Shown piece after piece: positions 37,755 to 53,802 of a stretch of DNA of 58,412 nt; the stretch's first letter is position 1; each line of letters opens with the position of its first letter. The position numbers and the translations under genes are program-made. This stretch comes from Aureimonas sp. AU22 (GTDB taxonomy: Bacteria > Pseudomonadota > Alphaproteobacteria > Rhizobiales > Rhizobiaceae): contig NZ_BBWJ01000034.1 of NCBI RefSeq assembly GCF_001463745.1, positions 1 through 58,412 of the forward strand, written 5' to 3'. The notes beneath the pieces were generated by a model, which saw only the letters and a list, made by a program, of their open reading frames with translations, was not told the origin of the DNA and searched no databases.

Positions 37755-37788
37755 TGTGGATTATGTTCCTATTTCGCGCTGTGGATTG
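37755..37788. promoter_or_regulatory. Two DnaA-box-like repeats upstream of the DnaA-IV gene
   Basis: TGTGGATTA (37755-37763) and TGTGGATTG (37780-37788) are direct repeats, 25 bp start to start. They share TGTGGAT with the complement of the DnaA box TTATCCACA. They lie about 125-155 bp upstream of a gene encoding a DnaA domain IV. Confidence 0.4.
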
Positions 37789-37911
37789 CGGGGAAACGCG
37801 TCAGCGAAAGCGCCCTTGCCGGTCGTATTCGCACGGTGATGGAAAGAAAATATTCCTACATGCGTTCGGGACTTGCTAGCCTTCGTTCATCCCGAGCCAT
37901 GGAGTCGTGCG

Positions 37912-38316
37912 ATGTCCCAATATCTCGATCAGACCGCAAGCCGCCGGTACCAACCCGCTCCCGGAGGAGCCGATCCCGGCGGGCGCGGCCGGCTGCAATG
38001 CCGGGTGGCGGTCGACATCGTTTCGGCCTTCCTCGGCGTTCCGGCGGCCGACATCCTGTCGGAACGCCGCGCCCAGGCGCCGATCGCCCGGGCGCGCCAT
38101 GTGGCGATGTACCTGGCGCACGTCGCCTTCCAACTTTCCCTCAACGCCGTCGCCCATGGCTTCGGCCGCGACCGGACCAGCGTTTCCTATGCGGTCGGAC
38201 GGATCGAGGACGAGCGGGACGATCGTGGGTTCGACGCGCTCCTGAACCGGATGGAGGCCCTGGCCCAATCGTGCCGGCGCCTGTCGGTTCCGGGCGCCGG
38301 GGAAGGGGACTTCTGA
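37912..38316 (+). CDS. Stand-alone DnaA domain IV (DnaA-box-binding) protein
   Basis: A 134-residue protein from ATG 37912 (GGAG, 7 nt spacing). Residues about 40-110 match the C-terminal domain of DnaA: VDIVSAFLGVPAADILSERRAQAPIARARHVAMYLAH, then the helix-turn-helix HGFGRDRTSVSYAVGRIE. Domains I-III, including the AAA+ ATPase, are absent. It could compete with DnaA for boxes at the origin or regulate genes. It is followed 5 bp later by a DUF6456 gene, a conserved pair in Hyphomicrobiales in my recollection. Its exact role is unknown. Confidence 0.8.
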   Translation: MSQYLDQTASRRYQPAPGGADPGGRGRLQCRVAVDIVSAFLGVPAADILSERRAQAPIARARHVAMYLAHVAFQLSLNAVAHGFGRDRTSVSYAVGRIEDERDDRGFDALLNRMEALAQSCRRLSVPGAGEGDF

Positions 38317-38320
38317 TCCG

Positions 38321-38776
38321 ATGGCGGCGACCGACGAATCTCCGCTCACCCGGCTTTCCTCCCGCAAGGGCGCGGACGGCAAGCCGTTCCTTGCCGCACA
38401 CGAGGTTGCGGCCGGAGAACGCCTGCGCGCCGACTTCACGCGCGGTGGTCTCAGTCCAAGTGTCACGCAGCGTTGGGAGGACACGCCGCGATCGGGCCCC
38501 CGGTCCGGCCCAGCGGACCTTTCGGATGCGGTGCTGGATTGCCGCGCTCGGGTCCAGCATGCGCTGAAGGCCGTGGGACCCGAACTGTCAGGCGTCCTGC
38601 TGGACGTCTGCTGCTTTCTGAAGGGCACGGAGCGTGTGGAGGCGGAGCGGCAGTGGCCCGCGCGCTCGGCCAAGCTCATGCTGAAGACCGGTCTTGCCGC
38701 GCTCGCTCGTCATTACGGTCTGGTGCACGACGCGGGAGAGGCGCGCAGGGGCATACGCGCCTGGAAGGGCGGCTGA
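38321..38776 (+). CDS. DUF6456 domain protein
   Basis: A 151-residue protein. Almost all of it fits DUF6456: SPLTRLSSRKGADGKPFL, AAHEVAAGERLRADFTRGGL and GPELSGVLLDVCCFLKGTERVEAERQWPARSAK, ending in a short helical segment LAALARHYGL. The helical C-terminus has HTH-like character, so a DNA-binding role is plausible but unproven. It is coupled to the DnaA-domain-IV gene and may act with it. It converges on sufE with a 2-bp gap. Confidence 0.8.
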   Translation: MAATDESPLTRLSSRKGADGKPFLAAHEVAAGERLRADFTRGGLSPSVTQRWEDTPRSGPRSGPADLSDAVLDCRARVQHALKAVGPELSGVLLDVCCFLKGTERVEAERQWPARSAKLMLKTGLAALARHYGLVHDAGEARRGIRAWKGG

Positions 38777-45697: not shown

Positions 45698-47899
45698 TCA
45701 GCGGCTGACGCTGGGGCCTGGGCCGTCGGGCCGGGTGGCGGCGAACTTTTCCGGCCCTGTGGGCTCCAGGGTCGACAGGAGAAGCTCGAGGTCGGACAGG
45801 ACGCGGCGCGTGTTGTTGTTGATGACGCTCGGCCGCGCGATCTGGGGCGCTTCGGCACCTTCCGGCTTGGGGACGTCGATGGAGCCGGGCGCGGGAATAG
45901 GATCGTCGATGTAGGGGATGGGACGCAGGTCGATGCCCTGATGCGCGGCTTCCATGAAGCGTTGCCAGGTCATGGCGGGCAGGCCGCCGCCGGTCAGCTT
46001 GTTGGTGGGCTTGAAGCTGTCGTTGCCGTACCAGACGGCGGCGGTGAAGTTGCCGGTGAAGCCGACGAACCAAGCGTCGCGGTAGCTCTGGGTGGTGCCG
46101 GTCTTGCCACCGGCGCGCGTCATCGACAGGCGGGCGCGACGGGCGGTGCCTATCTCGGGAATGCGCACGAACATCTCGTTCATACTCTTGGTCGCCTGCT
46201 CCGACAGGACGCGGCGGCGCGGGGGCATGTCGCGCTCGGCGTCCCAGAGGATGTGGCCTTCCGCGTCGGTGATCTGCTGGATCGCATGGCGGTTGGAGGT
46301 GAGACCGCCGGCCGGGAAGACGGAATAGCCGGTGGCCTGATCGAGGATCGTCACCTCGTTGGTGCCGAGCGCGATCGTCTTGTCGCCCCTCAGGGGGGTC
46401 TCGACGCCCATGTTGCGGGCGAGTTCGGCCACCTTGCCGGGGCCCGACTCCTGGCTCAGCTTGACCGCCACCGTGTTGAGCGAGCGGGCCATGGCGTCCT
46501 GGATCTGAAGGCGGCCGGCGTATTTCAGGCCGTAGTTCTGCGGCGACCAGTTGCCGACACTGACCGGGCCGTCGACGATCATGTCGGTCGGCTTGTGGCC
46601 GTTCTCCATCGCCAGCGCGTAGACATAGGCCTTGAACGAGGAGCCCGGCTGGCGAAGAGCGCGGGTCGCGCGGTTGAACTGGGACAGGCCGTAGTCCCTG
46701 CCGCCGACCATGGCGACGACCCCGCCGTCGTCGGCGATCACCGCCATAGCGCCTTCCTCGACGCCGAAGGTCTTGCCGTATTGGCGCAGGTGGAAATCGA
46801 CCGATTCGTCGGCGAGCTGCTGCAGGCCCATGTCGATCGTGGTGCGCGCGACGACCGTGCGCTGCGGCAGGTCGGCTGCGATGCGCTGGATCTCGTCGAA
46901 GGCGAAGTCCAGGAAGTAGTCCGGCGACTTGATGACGGAGCGGTCCACCGCGGTCGCCGGATGGCGCCGCGCGGCGACGACCTGGCCTTCGGTCATGAAG
47001 CCGGAATCGACCATGGCCGATAGCACGACGTTGGCGCGGGCGCGGGCGGCGGGCAGGTTATTGTGGGGCGCGTATTGCGTCGGCGCCTTGAAAAGGCCGG
47101 CGAGCATCGCGGATTCGGCAAGGTTCACGTCGCGGATGTTCTTGCCGAAATAGAACTCGGCCGCCGCCGCCGCGCCGTTGGCGCCGCCGCCCATGTAGGC
47201 GCGGTCGAGATACATGCCGAGGATCTCGCGCTTGGTGAGGTTCGCCTCGAGCCAGAGCGACAGGAACGCCTCGTTGATCTTGCGCTCGAGCGATCGCTCG
47301 TTGGAGAGGAAGACGTTCTTGGCGAGCTGCTGGGTGAGCGTCGAGCCGCCCTGAACGACGCCGCCGGCGCGCGCGTTCTGGCCGAGGGCGCGGCCGAGGC
47401 CGATGAAGTCGATGCCCCAGTGCTCGAAGAAGCGACGGTCCTCGGTCGCCAGCACCGCCTTGACGAAATGGTCGGGCAGTTCGTCGATCGGGACCGCGTC
47501 GGCCTTGAGGATGCCGCGGCGGCCGATCTCGTTGCCGTGGCGGTCGAGGAAGAGGACGGAATAGTCGGCCTGCTGGGGAAGCCCGGCAACGGTCTTCTGC
47601 ATGGCGGGCTGAGCGAGCACGAGCAGCACGACGAAACCGGCGAGACCGATGGTCAGCGACTCGCAGCAGAGCTCGACCACGACGCGGTTGAAACCGCGCA
47701 CCCGGAAGCGGCGCGAGGCGATGGTGACCGTTTCCCAAGCGCCGGAAAAGCCATGGAAAAGCCGCCAGAGCGTGGTATCCAGCCAAGCATCGACTTCCAT
47801 CAGTCGAGACGGGGCGCGCCGGCCCTTCGGCTTGGACGAGAACAGTTTCGGCACGGTCAGCCTATCCCCCCGGCGCGCCGCAACGACGCGTCGGACCAT
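45698..47899 (-). CDS. Bifunctional penicillin-binding protein (class A, PBP1-like)
   Basis: A 733-residue peptidoglycan synthase. A cytoplasmic basic head and transmembrane helix (about 82-99, TIGLAGFVVLLVLAQ) precede the glycosyltransferase 51 domain with catalytic Glu153 in ATEDRRFFEHWGID and QGGSTLTQQLAKN. The transpeptidase has Ser420/Lys423 in PGSSFKAYVYA, the SxN motif SLN and KTGTT. Both enzymatic halves look intact. GTG 47854 has a GGGGGAT-like site and is a possible alternative start giving 718 residues. It is the first gene of a run with DUF1214 and DUF1254. The C-terminal 70 residues are Pro-rich. Confidence 0.93.
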   Translation of the reverse strand: MVRRVVAARRGDRLTVPKLFSSKPKGRRAPSRLMEVDAWLDTTLWRLFHGFSGAWETVTIASRRFRVRGFNRVVVELCCESLTIGLAGFVVLLVLAQPAMQKTVAGLPQQADYSVLFLDRHGNEIGRRGILKADAVPIDELPDHFVKAVLATEDRRFFEHWGIDFIGLGRALGQNARAGGVVQGGSTLTQQLAKNVFLSNERSLERKINEAFLSLWLEANLTKREILGMYLDRAYMGGGANGAAAAAEFYFGKNIRDVNLAESAMLAGLFKAPTQYAPHNNLPAARARANVVLSAMVDSGFMTEGQVVAARRHPATAVDRSVIKSPDYFLDFAFDEIQRIAADLPQRTVVARTTIDMGLQQLADESVDFHLRQYGKTFGVEEGAMAVIADDGGVVAMVGGRDYGLSQFNRATRALRQPGSSFKAYVYALAMENGHKPTDMIVDGPVSVGNWSPQNYGLKYAGRLQIQDAMARSLNTVAVKLSQESGPGKVAELARNMGVETPLRGDKTIALGTNEVTILDQATGYSVFPAGGLTSNRHAIQQITDAEGHILWDAERDMPPRRRVLSEQATKSMNEMFVRIPEIGTARRARLSMTRAGGKTGTTQSYRDAWFVGFTGNFTAAVWYGNDSFKPTNKLTGGGLPAMTWQRFMEAAHQGIDLRPIPYIDDPIPAPGSIDVPKPEGAEAPQIARPSVINNNTRRVLSDLELLLSTLEPTGPEKFAATRPDGPGPSVSR

Positions 47900-48024
47900 C
47901 TTACAAGAACCAGTCGGCGAGACAAACAGCCATCGAAACCGACCCCTTCTGACGATCGTCCCATGACGGGCGAAGAGGGCGGTTCCGAGGCGTGCGCGTC
48001 GGGTTCCACGGATCGCAGAGCAAG

Positions 48025-48525
48025 ATGAACGAAACCCCCTTCTGGGCGCGCAAATCGCTGGACGAGATGACGACGGAGGAATGGGAGTCCCTGTGCGACG
48101 GGTGCGGGCGCTGCTGCCTGAACAAGCTGGAGGATTGGGACACCGGCGAGATCGTCTGGACCGAGGTCGCCTGCCACATGCTGGACGGGGGAAGCTGCCG
48201 ATGCTCGGACTACGAGAACCGCCATGCCACCGTGCCGGACTGCGTCACTCTCAGCCCCGACCTCGTGCGCTCCATCGCCTGGCTGCCGCCGACGTGCGGC
48301 TACCGCCTGGTGGCGGAGGGGCACCCCCTCCGGTGGTGGCATCATCTCGTGTCGGGCGATCCGCAGACCGTGCACGAGGCGGGGATCTCGGTTCGGGGGC
48401 GGACCGTGAGCGAAGAGGGGATGGAGCCGGAGGACTACGAGGACCACCTCGCGGCCTGGCCCGGAGACGATCCGGACGAGGATCGATCCAACGATGTAGG
48501 AAAATTATCTGAAATAGGAAAATAG
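48025..48525 (+). CDS. YcgN-family cysteine-cluster protein
   Basis: A 166-residue protein. [19 protein letters not shown] (about 20-38) and the following [19 protein letters not shown] region hold the Cys pattern of the YcgN/YkgJ zinc/iron chelatase-like family. [25 protein letters not shown] is a further conserved block. The family probably binds a metal or Fe-S cluster; its function is unknown. ATG 48025 is chosen by family length. The last few codons overlap AT-rich direct repeats that lie just before the GTA promoter. Confidence 0.88.
48497..48523 (+). repeat. Direct repeats just upstream of the GTA promoter
   Basis: TAGGAAAAT occurs at 48497-48505 and again at 48515-48523, 18 bp apart. 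They are inside the last codons of the YcgN-like gene and 6 bp before the -35 element of the GTA promoter. In a GC-rich genome such an AT-rich pair on one helix face stands out as a possible activator-binding site. Confidence 0.55.
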
Positions 48526-48528
48526 TCA

Positions 48529-48557
48529 TTGACACCGTGACGGTGCCGATGTAGGGT
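48529..48557 (+). promoter_or_regulatory. Sigma-70-like promoter of the GTA cluster
   Basis: TTGACA (48529-48534), a 17-bp spacer and TAGGGT (48552-48557) match a -35/-10 promoter, with a perfect -35 and a weaker -10. It lies 85 bp before the first GTA gene and follows the end of the YcgN-like gene. Confidence 0.65.
48533..48545. promoter_or_regulatory. 13-bp palindrome in the GTA promoter
   Basis: CACCGT-G-ACGGTG is a perfect 6-bp inverted repeat around a single G. It overlaps the -35 element and spacer of the GTA promoter, a position typical of repressor operators. Confidence 0.55.
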
Positions 48558-48641
48558 TCAGGCATAGTCGAATTGGTGCGCTCAAGAGGCGGTCGTTTCC
48601 GGAAGGAGCGGCCGCCTTCGGCGTTTCGGAGGACAGGGCGA

Positions 48642-49025
48642 ATGGGCAAGCCGGACGAGACGCTGCTTTCGGAGCGCCTGTTCGTGGCGCTCACCGCCGA
48701 GGTCTCGGCACTGGAGAAACGGCCGCGTCGGGTGGCCGAGAAGCCCGGCGAACCAGTGCCGAAGAAGACGTTGGCGGAGCGCGGGGCGGAGGCGAAAGCG
48801 CGGGTGGAGACGATCTCGCAGCTGACGCGCACCTTGGAGAAGCTTCTGGAGCTTCGCCAGTTGGAGGCGCTGTCGCGCGAGACCGGGCGGCGCGAGGACG
48901 AGGCGGAAGCCGGTGCCTTGCGTGCCGAGATGTTGAAGCGTCTGCGATCGATCGACGCGCAGCGCGGCGGAGCGGCGGGGCTGTTCGATGCGATCGCGGC
49001 GCCGGGCGGCGAGGCGGTGGGCTGA
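48642..49025 (+). CDS. GTA small terminase subunit (gp1-like)
   Basis: A 127-residue helical protein from ATG 48642 (GGAGGA upstream). Long charged helices (LLSERLFVALTAEVSALEKR, AEAKARVETISQLTRTLEKLLELRQLEA) fit gp1 of Rhodobacter-type GTAs, the small terminase that helps recruit DNA for headful packaging. The frame continues upstream to 48573 but lacks support. It is the first gene after the GTA promoter and its stop overlaps the large terminase start. Identification relies on context plus helical character. Confidence 0.7.
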   Translation: MGKPDETLLSERLFVALTAEVSALEKRPRRVAEKPGEPVPKKTLAERGAEAKARVETISQLTRTLEKLLELRQLEALSRETGRREDEAEAGALRAEMLKRLRSIDAQRGGAAGLFDAIAAPGGEAVG

Positions 49026-50317
49026 TGGACGGGGGATTCTGGGCGGAGATCGAGCGCGAACTGGAGGGCCAGCCGGCGCATGTGCTGCGGCGGGCGCTTC
49101 CGCGCTGGGCCCTGTGCGCACGGCCCGCGCAATTGCCGCCGCCGGGCGACTGGCGGCAATGGCTGCTGATCGGCGGACGCGGGTCGGGCAAGACACGGGC
49201 CGGCGCCGAATGGGTGCGCGCGATGGCGCTGGGCGAGGCGCCGCTGGCGGGACGCGTCCATGGGCGCATCGCGCTGGTGGCAGAGACGCTGGGCGACGCG
49301 CGCGAGGTAATGGTGGAGGGCGAGAGCGGGCTGCGGGCGCTCGACTACGAAACGCGCCCCGTGTTCGAGGCCTCGCGGCGCCGGCTGGTCTTCGCCAACG
49401 GCGCGGTGGCGCAGGTGTTTTCCTCGGAGGACCCGGACGCGCTGCGCGGCTACCAGTTCGATGCGGCCTGGGGCGACGAATTGGCCAAGTGGACCTATGC
49501 GGAGGGCTGTTTCGACAATCTGCAGCTGGCGCTGCGGCTGGGCGAGAACCCCCGCATGGTGCTGACGACGACGCCGCGCGCGGTGCCGATCCTCAAACGG
49601 CTCATGGCCGAGGAGGGGACGGCGGTGACGCGGATGCGCACCGGCGAGAACGCCGGCAATCTCGCCGCCGGGTTCGTGGCGGCGATGGAGACGCGTTACG
49701 GCGGATCGCGTCTGGCACGGCAGGAACTTGACGGCGAGATGATCGAGGCGCGCGAGGACGCGCTGTTCGACCGTGGCGCGATCGACCGCATGCGGGTGCG
49801 CGCGGTGCCGTCGCTCGGCCGGATCGTGGTGGCGGTGGATCCGCCGGCCTCGTCCGGACGCACGTCGGACGCCTGCGGCATCGTGGCGGCGGGGCTGGGC
49901 GGCGATGGGACCATCTACGTGCTGGCCGATCGGAGCAGGCGCGGGCTGAAGCCGCCGGAATGGGCAGCGGCTGCCGTTTCGCTCTATCGCGAGCTGGAGG
50001 CGGACCGGATCGTCGCCGAGGTGAACCAGGGCGGCGAGATGGTGGAGGCCGTGCTGCGAACGGTGGCACCGGACGTGCCGGTGTCGAGCGTTCGGGCGAC
50101 GCGCGGCAAATGGGTGCGGGCCGAACCGGTCGCGGCGCTCTACGAGCAGGGGCGCGTCCGGCATGCCGGCAGCTTTGCCGAACTGGAGGACGAGCTCTGC
50201 GATTTCGGCCCCAACGGGCTGTCGAACGGGCGCTCGCCGGACCGGCTGGACGCCATGGTCTGGGCGGTGACCGCGCTGAACCAGCCGCGCTCGGAGCCGC
50301 GTATCCGGCGGCTGTGA
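49025..50317 (+). CDS. GTA large terminase (gp2)
   Basis: A 430-residue DNA-packaging motor. Walker A is GGRGSGKT (50-57), followed by the conserved VHGRIALVAETLGDAREVM and the Walker B region YQFDAAWGDELAKW. The C-terminal RNase-H-like nuclease has an Asp in VVAVDPPASSGRTSDACGI and acidic/His residues later (RSPDRLDAMVWAVTAL). In GTAs it packages random host DNA fragments. ATG 49025 overlaps gp1's stop (TGATG). The length is near RcGTA gp2. Confidence 0.93.
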   Translation: MDGGFWAEIERELEGQPAHVLRRALPRWALCARPAQLPPPGDWRQWLLIGGRGSGKTRAGAEWVRAMALGEAPLAGRVHGRIALVAETLGDAREVMVEGESGLRALDYETRPVFEASRRRLVFANGAVAQVFSSEDPDALRGYQFDAAWGDELAKWTYAEGCFDNLQLALRLGENPRMVLTTTPRAVPILKRLMAEEGTAVTRMRTGENAGNLAAGFVAAMETRYGGSRLARQELDGEMIEAREDALFDRGAIDRMRVRAVPSLGRIVVAVDPPASSGRTSDACGIVAAGLGGDGTIYVLADRSRRGLKPPEWAAAAVSLYRELEADRIVAEVNQGGEMVEAVLRTVAPDVPVSSVRATRGKWVRAEPVAALYEQGRVRHAGSFAELEDELCDFGPNGLSNGRSPDRLDAMVWAVTALNQPRSEPRIRRL

Positions 50318-50357
50318 CCGCAAAGACTTGAAGCCTTCCGTTGAACGGAGACATGAG

Positions 50358-51560
50358 ATGGGTTTGACGACGAGGCTGAAGGCCTTGGCGGGGCTGACGC
50401 CTGCGCCGGAGGTGCGGTCGGGCTCGCCCGGCGGGGCGCTGGTGTTCACCGGCGCGGCGGACGAGGCGGACTGGACGGAGCGCTCCTACGGGTCGCTGGC
50501 GCGCGCTGGCTTCATGCGCAATCCGCTGGTCTATCGCTGCGTCAGGCTGATCGCAGAGAACGCCGCGGCTGTGCCCTTCGTTCTGTACCAGGGGCGGGAG
50601 GAGGTGGAAGCGCACGCGATTCTCGACCTTCTGCGCCAGCCGAACGGGCTGCAGGACGGCGCGGCGCTGATCGAGACGCTGGTCGGTCATCTCCTTCTGT
50701 CGGGGGCGGCGCATGTCGAGGCGAGCGTGCTGGACGGTGTGCCGCGCCAGATCCACGCGCTACGGCCGGACCAGATCCGTACGATCTCCTCCGTCGACGG
50801 CTGGCCGGAGGCGGTGGAGCAGCGGGTGGGCGGGCGCGTCCGGCGCATTCCGCTGGAGGCGGACGGCGAAAGGCCGGCGCGCGTGCTGGCGATCCGGCTG
50901 TTTCACCCTTTGAGCGAAGCGGACGGGTTCGCGCCGGTGAGCGCGGCGCAGACGGCGCTCGACCTCCACAATGCGGCGACGCGCTGGAACAAGGCGCTGC
51001 TCGACAATTCGGCCCGGCCCTCCGGCGCGCTAGTCTATCAGCCCGGCGACGGCGGCAACCTGTCGAGCGACCAGTTCGAGCGGCTGAAGACCGAGTTGGA
51101 GAGCGGCTATGCGGGCGCTGCGCGGGCCGGGCGGCCCATGCTGCTGGAGGGCGGGCTCGACTGGAAGGCGATGGCGCTCTCCCCCCGCGACATGGATTTC
51201 ATGGAAGCGCGCAACGGCGCGGCGCGGGACGTGGCGATTGCCTTCGGTGTTCCGCCGATGCTGCTCGGCATCCCGGGCGATGCGACCTACGCCAACTACG
51301 CCGAGGCGAACCGGGCGCTGATCCGGCTGACCGTGCTGCCGCTGGTGGCGCGGCTCTCGGCGGCGCTCGGCAACTGGCTCGGCGGCTTCTTCGAGGACGA
51401 GCGGGACTTGCGGCTCGGTTTCGACGCGGACCGGATCGAGGGTCTGTCGGTGGAGCGCGAGGCGCTCTGGGCACGGCTCGGGGCGGCGAGCTTCCTCGAC
51501 GACGACGAGAAGCGCGAGGCCGTGGGCTATGGGGCGCGCAGCCGACGCACGGCGACATGA
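50358..51560 (+). CDS. GTA portal protein (gp3)
   Basis: A 400-residue HK97-type portal that forms the ring through which DNA enters and leaves the head. FMRNPLVYRCVRLIAENAAAVPFVLYQG, LLSGAAHVEASVLDGVPRQIHALRPDQI and VAIAFGVPPMLLGIPGDATYANYAEANRALI are portal signatures. ATG 50358 has GGAG upstream. It lies 40 bp after gp2. Confidence 0.92.
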   Translation: MGLTTRLKALAGLTPAPEVRSGSPGGALVFTGAADEADWTERSYGSLARAGFMRNPLVYRCVRLIAENAAAVPFVLYQGREEVEAHAILDLLRQPNGLQDGAALIETLVGHLLLSGAAHVEASVLDGVPRQIHALRPDQIRTISSVDGWPEAVEQRVGGRVRRIPLEADGERPARVLAIRLFHPLSEADGFAPVSAAQTALDLHNAATRWNKALLDNSARPSGALVYQPGDGGNLSSDQFERLKTELESGYAGAARAGRPMLLEGGLDWKAMALSPRDMDFMEARNGAARDVAIAFGVPPMLLGIPGDATYANYAEANRALIRLTVLPLVARLSAALGNWLGGFFEDERDLRLGFDADRIEGLSVEREALWARLGAASFLDDDEKREAVGYGARSRRTAT

Positions 51561-52551: not shown

Positions 52552-53802
52552 ATGCAGACCTTCAACCAGGGCGCGCCGGAGACGAAAGCCAACGGGGGAC
52601 GCGAGGGCGCCGAGGCGCTGAACGACTTCATGGGGGCTTTCGACGCCTTCCGCGAGGCCAACGACGACCGCCTGTCGCAGATCGAGAAGCGCATGAGCGC
52701 CGACGTCCTGACCGGCGAGAAGGCCGACCGCATCGCCAAGGCGATGGACGAGCACGAGAGGCGGCTGGAGCGTCTCGTGCTGAAGGGCATGCGCCCGCCA
52801 GCCGGCGGTGGCGAGACGGCGAGCGCCGAGCCGAGCGAGCATCGCTCCGCCTTCGAGGCCTATGTGCGCGGCGGTGACGAGACGCGCCTGCGGCGGCTGG
52901 AGGAGAAGGCGATGTCGGGCCTCGTCGGCGCCGACGGGGGCTTCCTGGTGCCGAGCGAAACGGAGACGGAGATCGGTCGGCGACTGGCCGCCGTCTCGCC
53001 CATCCGCGGGATCGCCACCGTGCGCACCGTGTCGTCGGCAGTGCTGCGCAAGCCCTTCGCGGTGAACGGGGCGCAGACGGGTTGGGTGGGCCAGGCCGAT
53101 GCCCGGCCGCAGACGAACGCGCCGCAGCTCGCCGAGCTGAGCTTCCCGACGATGGAGCTCTACGCGATGCCGGCGGCGACCAACGCGCTGCTCGACGACT
53201 CCGCCGTCGATATCGACGCCTGGATCGGCGAGGAGGTCGAGCAGGCCTTCGCGGCGCAGGAGGGCGCGGCTTTCGTGAGCGGCGACGGGGTGTCGAAGCC
53301 GAAGGGCTTCATGAGCTATCCGACCGTTGCCGAGAGCGCTTTTGCCTGGGGCAGCGTCGGCACGATCTCGACGGGGGCGAACGGCGGGTTCCTTGCCGGG
53401 GCTGCGGGCGACGCGCTGATCGACCTGATCTATGCGCTGAAGGCGGGCTACCGTCAGAACGCCAGCTTCGTGATGAACCGCCGCACGCAGAGCGCGGTGC
53501 GCAAGCTGAAGGATGGCGACGGAAACTACCTCTGGGCGCCGCCCTCGGCGGTGGGCGCGCGGGCGACGCTGATGGGCTTTCCCGTTGTGGAGGCCGAGGC
53601 GATGCCGGACATCGAGACGGGCGCAAAGGCCATCGCCTTCGGCGACTTCGGCCGCTTCTATCTCGTGGTCGACCGGCAGGGCGTGCGGGTGCTGCGCGAT
53701 CCCTACAGCGCCAAGCCCTACGTCCTTTTCTACACGACCAAGCGCGTGGGCGGCGGCATCCAGGACTTCGATGCGGCCAAGCTCCTGAACTTCGCGGCCT
53801 GA
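52552..53802 (+). CDS. GTA major capsid protein (gp5), HK97 fold
   Basis: A 416-residue coat protein. An N-terminal delta/scaffold-like helical region (about 1-105, including DDRLSQIEKRMSADVL and DEHERRLERLVLKG) is expected to be removed by gp4. The mature HK97 fold includes GLVGADGGFLVPSETETEIGRRL, EEVEQAFAAQEGAAFVSGDG, YPTVAESAFAWGSVGTI and GFPVVEAEAMPD. ATG 52552 has GAGGAG upstream. Followed by a perfect 10-bp hairpin. Confidence 0.94.
   Translation: MQTFNQGAPETKANGGREGAEALNDFMGAFDAFREANDDRLSQIEKRMSADVLTGEKADRIAKAMDEHERRLERLVLKGMRPPAGGGETASAEPSEHRSAFEAYVRGGDETRLRRLEEKAMSGLVGADGGFLVPSETETEIGRRLAAVSPIRGIATVRTVSSAVLRKPFAVNGAQTGWVGQADARPQTNAPQLAELSFPTMELYAMPAATNALLDDSAVDIDAWIGEEVEQAFAAQEGAAFVSGDGVSKPKGFMSYPTVAESAFAWGSVGTISTGANGGFLAGAAGDALIDLIYALKAGYRQNASFVMNRRTQSAVRKLKDGDGNYLWAPPSAVGARATLMGFPVVEAEAMPDIETGAKAIAFGDFGRFYLVVDRQGVRVLRDPYSAKPYVLFYTTKRVGGGIQDFDAAKLLNFAA

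Follow-up and report, generated by a model that had tools for sequence, protein, structure and literature searches.

A promoter module conserved across Hyphomicrobiales precedes the GTA cluster of Aureimonas sp. AU22 and resembles antitermination-dependent late promoters

The DNA analysed here, hereafter the window, is a stretch of 58,412 nt of Aureimonas sp. AU22 (contig NZ_BBWJ01000034.1) that carries on its forward strand the cluster of a gene transfer agent (GTA, a phage-like particle that transfers DNA) together with homologs of its regulators. The cluster starts with an ORF of 127 aa in the g1 position (48642..49025, ATG at 48642), for which no Pfam, PHROG or NCBIfam match was found and which has a similar frame in 42 of 98 loci. 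This ORF is followed on the same strand by the genes of the GTA large terminase (49025..50317; PF03237/PF17289), the portal protein (50328..51560; PF04860) and the major capsid protein (52552..53802; PF05065), and a prohead protease is also encoded in the cluster. The promoter described below thus has terL, portal and capsid genes downstream and lies directly before the GTA packaging and head genes. About 10 kb upstream of this promoter, a gafY homolog with a DnaA domain IV-like region (37873..38316, plus strand; PF08299, 2.1e-14) directly precedes a gafZ homolog (DUF6456; 38321..38776, plus strand; PF20057, 8.3e-47), the sole match to this family in the genome, and the pair is followed by sufE. 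A gafY-gafZ-sufE synteny is described for Hyphomicrobiales (PMC9638019), and judged by domains and gene order gafY and gafZ are here a split gafA with that synteny. Three other Aureimonas genomes (G004, G011 and G014) also have gafZ, with a more divergent product (49-52%), while no terminase match was found in them at E 0.001.

Direct reading of the sequence confirmed the elements listed by the initial annotation. Two copies of TAGGAAAAT are located at 48497-48505 and 48515-48523, 18 bp from start to start, and are followed on the plus strand by a TTGACA -35 (48529..48534), a 17-bp spacer and a TAGGGT -10 (48552..48557), with a 13-bp palindrome, CACCGTGACGGTG (48533..48545), that overlaps the -35 and the spacer. 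TAGGAAAAT occurs twice in the 58-kb window, a number reached in none of 100 shuffles (mean 0.03), and the repeat pair is found only once in the 4.6-Mb genome (4.63 Mb). TTGACA-N17-TANNNT likewise occurs once in the window (shuffle mean 0.02), as does the exact palindrome sequence (shuffle mean 0.14 with one mismatch allowed). Both repeats are contained in the last codons of an upstream YcgN-family ORF, the TAG stop of which (48523-48525) forms part of repeat 2. TAGGGT agrees with TATAAT at just three of six positions; generic scans called neither a sigma-70 promoter nor a terminator at 47000-50000, and Rfam at gathering scores returned two tRNAs only for the whole window. Further features had not been part of the initial annotation, namely an invariant initially transcribed region, a leader hairpin and the presence of gafY and gafZ in the same window.

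Sites for two other regulators were searched for. No CtrA-type TTAA-N7-TTAA motif was found at the GTA or the gafYZ promoter with one mismatch allowed, and CtrA control of the GTA promoter was rejected on this ground. Five CtrA-like half-site pairs with one mismatch do occur in the window (7278, 9479, 9524, 39971 and 44003; 0.46 expected), none of them at either promoter. With one mismatch allowed, the IHF consensus, applied in its E. coli form, had no match near the GTA promoter.

Conservation was assessed on 80 named Hyphomicrobiales terminase loci and on the loci of the genus; 18 of its 21 genomes gave a terminase match, in two cases at 49% identity. Among named organisms, Aureimonas comes closest to the window in its GTA terminase. 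Two genus loci with a divergent terminase (L028 and L029) were left out before anchoring, 96 loci were anchored without gaps on whichever stretch best matched a seed of 30 columns, and 81 were kept once seven duplicates and eight loci with more than nine mismatches to the seed had been dropped. These 81 loci form a gapless alignment of 67 columns with TAGGAAAATAGTCC-TTGAC-NN-CGTNACGGT as their common consensus. Since the loci were anchored on their best seed match, part of the conservation seen in columns 0-29 results from the procedure itself; TTGAC, for instance, is present in 80 of 81 loci, with a variable sixth base. Outside the seed, the spacer is fixed at 17 bases, the TA of the -10 is found in 79 of 81 loci, and A+1, T+5 and C+6 occur in all of them. 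The initial annotation had made its claim of a layered control region depend on conservation in related species, and the claim withstood this check: a module does precede the GTA genes across the order, with an uneven conservation of its parts: the CGTNACG core of the palindrome is kept, but the full 13 bp are perfect in 14 of 81 loci and the first repeat stands at exactly 18 bp (at least 7 of 9 bases) in 17 of 81.

The upstream and core pattern, with at most three mismatches, was detected in 131 of the 347 genomes of the order, compared with 28 matches in a backwards control, and 111 of these 131 genomes have a single match. Of the 347 genomes, 246 encode a terminase of GTA type (E 1e-60 or better), and for 149 of these its place is among the matches listed. 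When matches with at most two mismatches in these listed genomes are considered, 40 of 51 sit 0.46-2.6 kb upstream of the terminase on the same strand, in a tally that takes in most of the matches listed and omits further copies of one genus (G263, G299, G137, G196, G220 and G315); adding five further such matches, none near a terminase, gives 40 of 56. The exact 28-base core was also found in 25 contigs of IMG/VR, with a GTA terminase (24 contigs) or a GTA capsid gene (one contig) downstream on the same strand, and since this collection holds virus-like contigs the 25/25 shows a tie to GTA genes, not rarity elsewhere. One genome with a spread-out cluster (G051) has three module copies, before the terminase, portal and capsid genes (L162, positions 979, 8258 and 14584). 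Because it is conserved order-wide and its matches are tied to GTA genes, the region is, as a module, a GTA promoter.

Several other occurrences of the module were recorded. At locus L176, where the GTA cluster is spread out, a promoter copy precedes the capsid gene. Three genomes of a single genus (g36; G263, G299 and G168, stretches L142-L161 and L164-L168) carry up to 11 copies each, most of them away from GTA genes; one precedes purH (L154), another is separated by ca. 1.4 kb from a dihydropteroate synthase gene downstream (L150), and the upstream element of these copies is a cleaner inverted repeat, e.g. GGAT-N4-ATCC. Finally, an 18-kb entry named Bacteriophage sp. 103231 (MW091529.1) displays a promoter match of 77% over 52% of the query and a terminase match of 60%, which together suggest a GTA cluster deposited under a phage name.

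The upstream repeats belong to an element that recurs at a few defined places. A matrix trained on the 49 loci outside the Aureimonas group was run over the 116,798 positions of the window, and its five best matches correspond to four sites, both repeats and two sites before gafYZ. The main operator-like element, an inverted repeat of AGGA-N6-TCCT type represented here by AGGAAAATAGTCAT (48515..48529, plus strand), abuts the -35, is aligned in the 81 loci and is the best match; the upstream copy, TAGGAAAATTATCT (48497..48510, plus strand), ranks fourth. Before gafYZ, the inverted repeat AAAGAAAATATTCCTA (37843..37858) scores on both strands and provides the second and fifth best matches, and TAGGAACATAATCC (37758..37771, minus strand) the third. 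The octamer TGTGGATT at 37780-37787, ca. 60 bp upstream of the element at 37843 and before gafY, looks DnaA-box-like by eye and is also seen in the same region of L194-L199. Across the 81 loci the outer pairs of the main element are complementary in 72, 55, 78 and 70 cases, GGA-N6-TCC is exact in 46 and GGA-N6-TC in 61, the site of the window having TCAT; the second repeat is close to the consensus in most loci, but it is part of the anchoring seed.

Upstream of gafYZ, an operator-like element scoring at least 10 was present in 18 of 21 Aureimonas loci and scored below 10 in the other three. The same element also precedes the gene of an S24 (LexA/cI-like) repressor of 214 aa: of 30 loci, taken as the best among 50 genomes with a match, 27 have it and three score below 10; no such score was seen in 394 null windows drawn from this contig, coding DNA included. 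A scan of the genome with two mismatches was noisy, with 19 matches where the backwards control gave 11, and its four one-mismatch matches fall at the GTA promoter, at the gafYZ promoter, on the upstream side of the S24 gene and in a YkuD/ImuA-like gap. The last of these (L218:1501-1514) is flanked by a YkuD gene and by an ORF on the minus strand whose likeness to ImuA is below the family cut-off; seen in this one genome, it may be an additional target with a link to DNA damage.

In Caulobacter, the LexA-like RogA (213 aa) is reported to bind the gafYZ promoter, and inverted repeats GGAA-N4-TTCC are given for it (PMC9632790). Because the same element stands at gafYZ and at the S24 gene and resembles GGAA-N4-TTCC, the repeats are best fitted by putative operators of a RogA/LexA-like S24 repressor, and not by the activator site proposed in the initial annotation. 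The simplest reading of the sequences would place putative operators of RogA type at three promoters: that of gafYZ, that of the repressor gene itself and, against the -35, that of the GTA cluster. Some observations run against it: Caulobacter RogA is reported as not enriched at the GTA cluster promoter (PMC9632790), and one genome (G017) has an operator-like site near gafY while no S24 gene match was found in it at 1e-20. The protein itself could be cleavable, since the S24 Ser/Lys pair and the Ala-Gly pair are kept in 120 of 120 homologs (the listed best of 8000); Caulobacter RogA is reported to lack key residues, a difference that also counts against the RogA reading.

GafY had first been taken as the owner of the repeats, a view displaced by the element before the S24 gene. 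A related alternative holds that the AGGA-N6-TCCT element is a GafY activator box, set beside the -35 so that GafY touches sigma region 4, with no repressor acting at the GTA promoter. The element is indeed common to the GTA and gafYZ promoters, both of which are GafY targets in Caulobacter according to PMC9632790, and Caulobacter GafY is reported to contact domains 3-4 of RpoD (PMC11150451). However, the presence of the element before the S24 gene in 27 of 30 loci is a usual sign of autoregulation, the element is of the published RogA operator type (PMC9632790), and the GafY element mapped in Caulobacter lies at -123 to -113 with another sequence (PMC11150451), so that we regard a GafY box as rather doubtful and retain the repressor operator.

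Downstream of the start, the leader contains a terminator-like hairpin (48586..48618, plus strand, i.e. +23..+55) of -23.4 kcal/mol, with a fold z of -3.8 for the leader of the window. A search for bulge-free hairpins scored in 1 of the 32 Aureimonas-group leaders and in 15 of the 49 others (shuffles 1.0 and 1.5) and was replaced by a fold-based search; in 31 of the 32 best folds obtained for the group, the hairpin starts between +15 and +28. The automatic leader alignment misplaced the hairpin, RNAalifold keeping three pairs on it, and an arm-swap test was therefore used: arms paired with their own partner reach -24.1 kcal/mol compared with -16.1 when swapped and beat 90% of swaps in 25 of 32 leaders, with the caveat that arm lengths differ between species, which also weakens swapped pairs. 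Under a strict terminator rule that combines a T-rich tail with -15 kcal/mol or better, 24 of 32 Aureimonas-group leaders score (shuffles 3.3; 1 at a position further down), as do 19 of 49 at the other loci (shuffles 3.9; 0 further down), the first ~120 nt of the remaining 30 containing none by this rule. The hairpin of the window fails both the strict rule and the generic scan, its tail CGGCGTTTCG being a weak U-tract, and termination may consequently be weak there. AlpA-controlled leaders offer a precedent, with terminators that start 26 and 54 nt downstream of the start (PMC7969949).

The hairpin persists even in leaders with a weak U-tract, that of the window among them, and several of its loops look GNRA-like by eye. 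Both points would also suit a role other than termination, namely as a boxB/nut-like site in the RNA, in stabilising the transcript or in controlling translation. We nevertheless consider such a role unlikely, as terminators with a strict tail are far above shuffles and the best-fold hairpins are directly followed by at least four T in 7 of 32 leaders and by at least three in 14 of 32.

Only a part of the palindrome is conserved. CG-N3-CG is found in 77 of 81 loci, and the conserved part amounts to CGTNACG (48536-48542) with a centre base that varies among loci. This inverted repeat lies between the -35 and the -10, as do the GafZ element of Caulobacter (PMC11150451), the QBE of lambdoid Q (PMC6606751) and the ABE of AlpA (PMC7969949), although its sequence is unlike the Caulobacter ZBE, and by analogy we propose CGTNACG as a candidate GafZ-loading element. 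A core matrix scores 26.9 at the GTA promoter and 12.1 at the next place in the window, and a start-region matrix (columns 35-66) 38.3 and 9.8, respectively; these lone high scores are in keeping with the single target reported for Caulobacter GafZ (PMC11150451). The initial annotation had read the palindrome as a repressor operator overlapping the core promoter. Such an operator would account for an inverted repeat that overlaps the -35 and the spacer and is perfect over 13 bp in this genome; it is made quite improbable by the unconserved outer arms (14 of 81 perfect), by a position that coincides with the loading sites of Q, AlpA and GafZ, and by the -10-like hexamer and leader hairpin that accompany the palindrome. 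The roles first given to the repeats and to the palindrome thus look swapped.

The hexamer in question, CATAGT (48563..48568, plus strand), covers -1 to +5 relative to the predicted start at A48564 and opens onto a conserved initially transcribed region (48564..48581, plus strand; matrix of columns 35-66). A -10-like sequence in the initially transcribed region, as found with Q and AlpA, is present. Besides the 81 loci, A+1, T+5 and C+6 are retained in all 25 viral contigs and in all 30 copies of L142-L168, which come from 27 stretches of five genomes; both sets had been picked by upstream and core columns only. AlpA is reported to need a -10-like hexamer at -1 to +5, with A+1 and T+5, for a sigma-dependent pause (PMC9371919), and on this analogy CATAGT is proposed as a candidate sigma-dependent pause element. 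Conservation of A+1 may be explained equally well by start-base preference, which does not account for that of T+5 and C+6.

The near-consensus -35, the 17-bp spacer and the extra copies away from GTA in one genus, including the one before purH, might suggest a strong but otherwise ordinary sigma-70 promoter of the host that stands by chance before GTA genes. This reading is highly improbable given that 111 of 131 genomes have one match only, that matches are tied to GTA genes and that the conserved stretch extends beyond what sigma-70 requires.

The anatomy observed here, its order-wide conservation and its place before the GTA genes, together with the shared element, the conserved leader hairpin and the gafY/gafZ pair, probably correspond to a GTA promoter of late type that is repressed and antitermination-dependent, with GafZ loaded at the promoter, a pause and a leader terminator. 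From these features we infer where transcription starts, which proteins contact the DNA, and how pausing and antitermination take place, in an order of events proposed after Q and AlpA. Without induction, an S24 repressor (LexA/cI-like, of the RogA kind) would occupy both AGGA-N6-TCCT-type elements (48497-48529) and obstruct the near-consensus -35; through similar elements it would also keep gafYZ and its own gene in check. Once repression is lifted and GafY and GafZ are made, sigma-70 RNA polymerase would start at about A48564 and stall early, with sigma region 2 gripping the -10-like hexamer at -1 to +5. GafZ on the CGTNACG repeat would then load onto this stalled polymerase in the manner of Q and AlpA; the loaded enzyme would read through the leader hairpin and the cluster, and an unloaded one would stop, fully or partly, in the leader.

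A broader version of this scheme is tentative and, taken as a whole, somewhat doubtful. It supposes a prophage-like late operon throughout the order, with a self-cleavable repressor on gafYZ, on its own gene and on the GTA promoter, GafZ as an antiterminator of the Q/AlpA type that loads at a sigma-dependent pause and overcomes a leader terminator, a release inducible by DNA damage and a switch copied to host genes of the purH kind. Damage-inducible GTA release would follow from the Ser/Lys and Ala-Gly residues of the S24 protein, which are intact, in contrast to what is reported for Caulobacter RogA. Should the scheme be true, host genes such as purH would be enrolled in the GTA programme in at least one genus.

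A search of the open-licence literature found no base-level account of how a GTA cluster is switched on in Hyphomicrobiales, and no order-wide promoter, operator on a GTA promoter, pause element or leader terminator described for GTAs. Antitermination of the BaGTA genes of Bartonella, a member of the same bacterial order, is reportedly the subject of work by Korotaev et al. in 2025, to judge by its title. BaGTA is another GTA lineage. The proposed map, which places an operator, a loading site, a pause element and a terminator, makes GTA switch-on directly testable, and the module gives a sequence signature for GTA clusters, as seen with the 25/25 of the viral collection.

Among the systems described, the GTA of Rhodobacter capsulatus is controlled by GafA, which binds 76-125 bp before the g1 start (PMC6363796). 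The same distance corresponds here to 48517-48566 and spans the operator, the -35, the palindrome, the -10 and +1. R. capsulatus differs by its fused GafA and by a site that is not mapped to the base, and no repressor operator or terminator is described for its promoter in the available parts of these papers (PMC6363796, PMC9638019).

PgtaT of Caulobacter crescentus shares with the promoter of the window the GafYZ-type genes, an inverted repeat between -35 and -10 and, with the leader hairpin as its candidate here, a terminator to pass (PMC11150451), as well as a LexA-like repressor with sites of the GGAA-N4-TTCC type at gafYZ (PMC9632790), which is putative here. GafZ antitermination is thus already known in that species (PMC11150451). 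The differences from the promoter described in PMC11150451 lie in the -35, near consensus here and degenerate there; in the spacer repeat, which has another sequence; in the absence here of an IHF consensus (E. coli form), whereas GafY there binds far upstream with IHF; and in the hairpin, found here in the leader before g1, while the terminator there comes after gtaT. Compared with the part of the Caulobacter system described, the operator-like element of the window also abuts the -35 of the GTA promoter itself.

The lambdoid PR'/Q system has in common with it an element between -35 and -10, a -10-like initially transcribed sequence and a downstream terminator (PMC6606751), for which the terminator-like leader hairpin is the candidate here. 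It differs in that the element of 21Q is a direct repeat (PMC6606751) and in that the promoter here controls GTA genes. The AlpA promoters of Pseudomonas aeruginosa likewise combine a loading element between -35 and -10 with a hexamer at -1 to +5 that has A+1 and T+5 (PMC7969949, PMC9371919), and their intrinsic terminator, 26 or 54 nt after the start, has its counterpart here in the leader hairpin (PMC7969949). Compared with AlpA as described there, the candidate antiterminator is a DUF6456 protein of GafZ type, its element is an inverted repeat and operator-like sites are located upstream. GafZ is reported to show no similarity to known antiterminators (PMC11150451), and the likeness of these promoters suggests that it joins Q and AlpA in a single mechanism that would have been reached by an unrelated protein.
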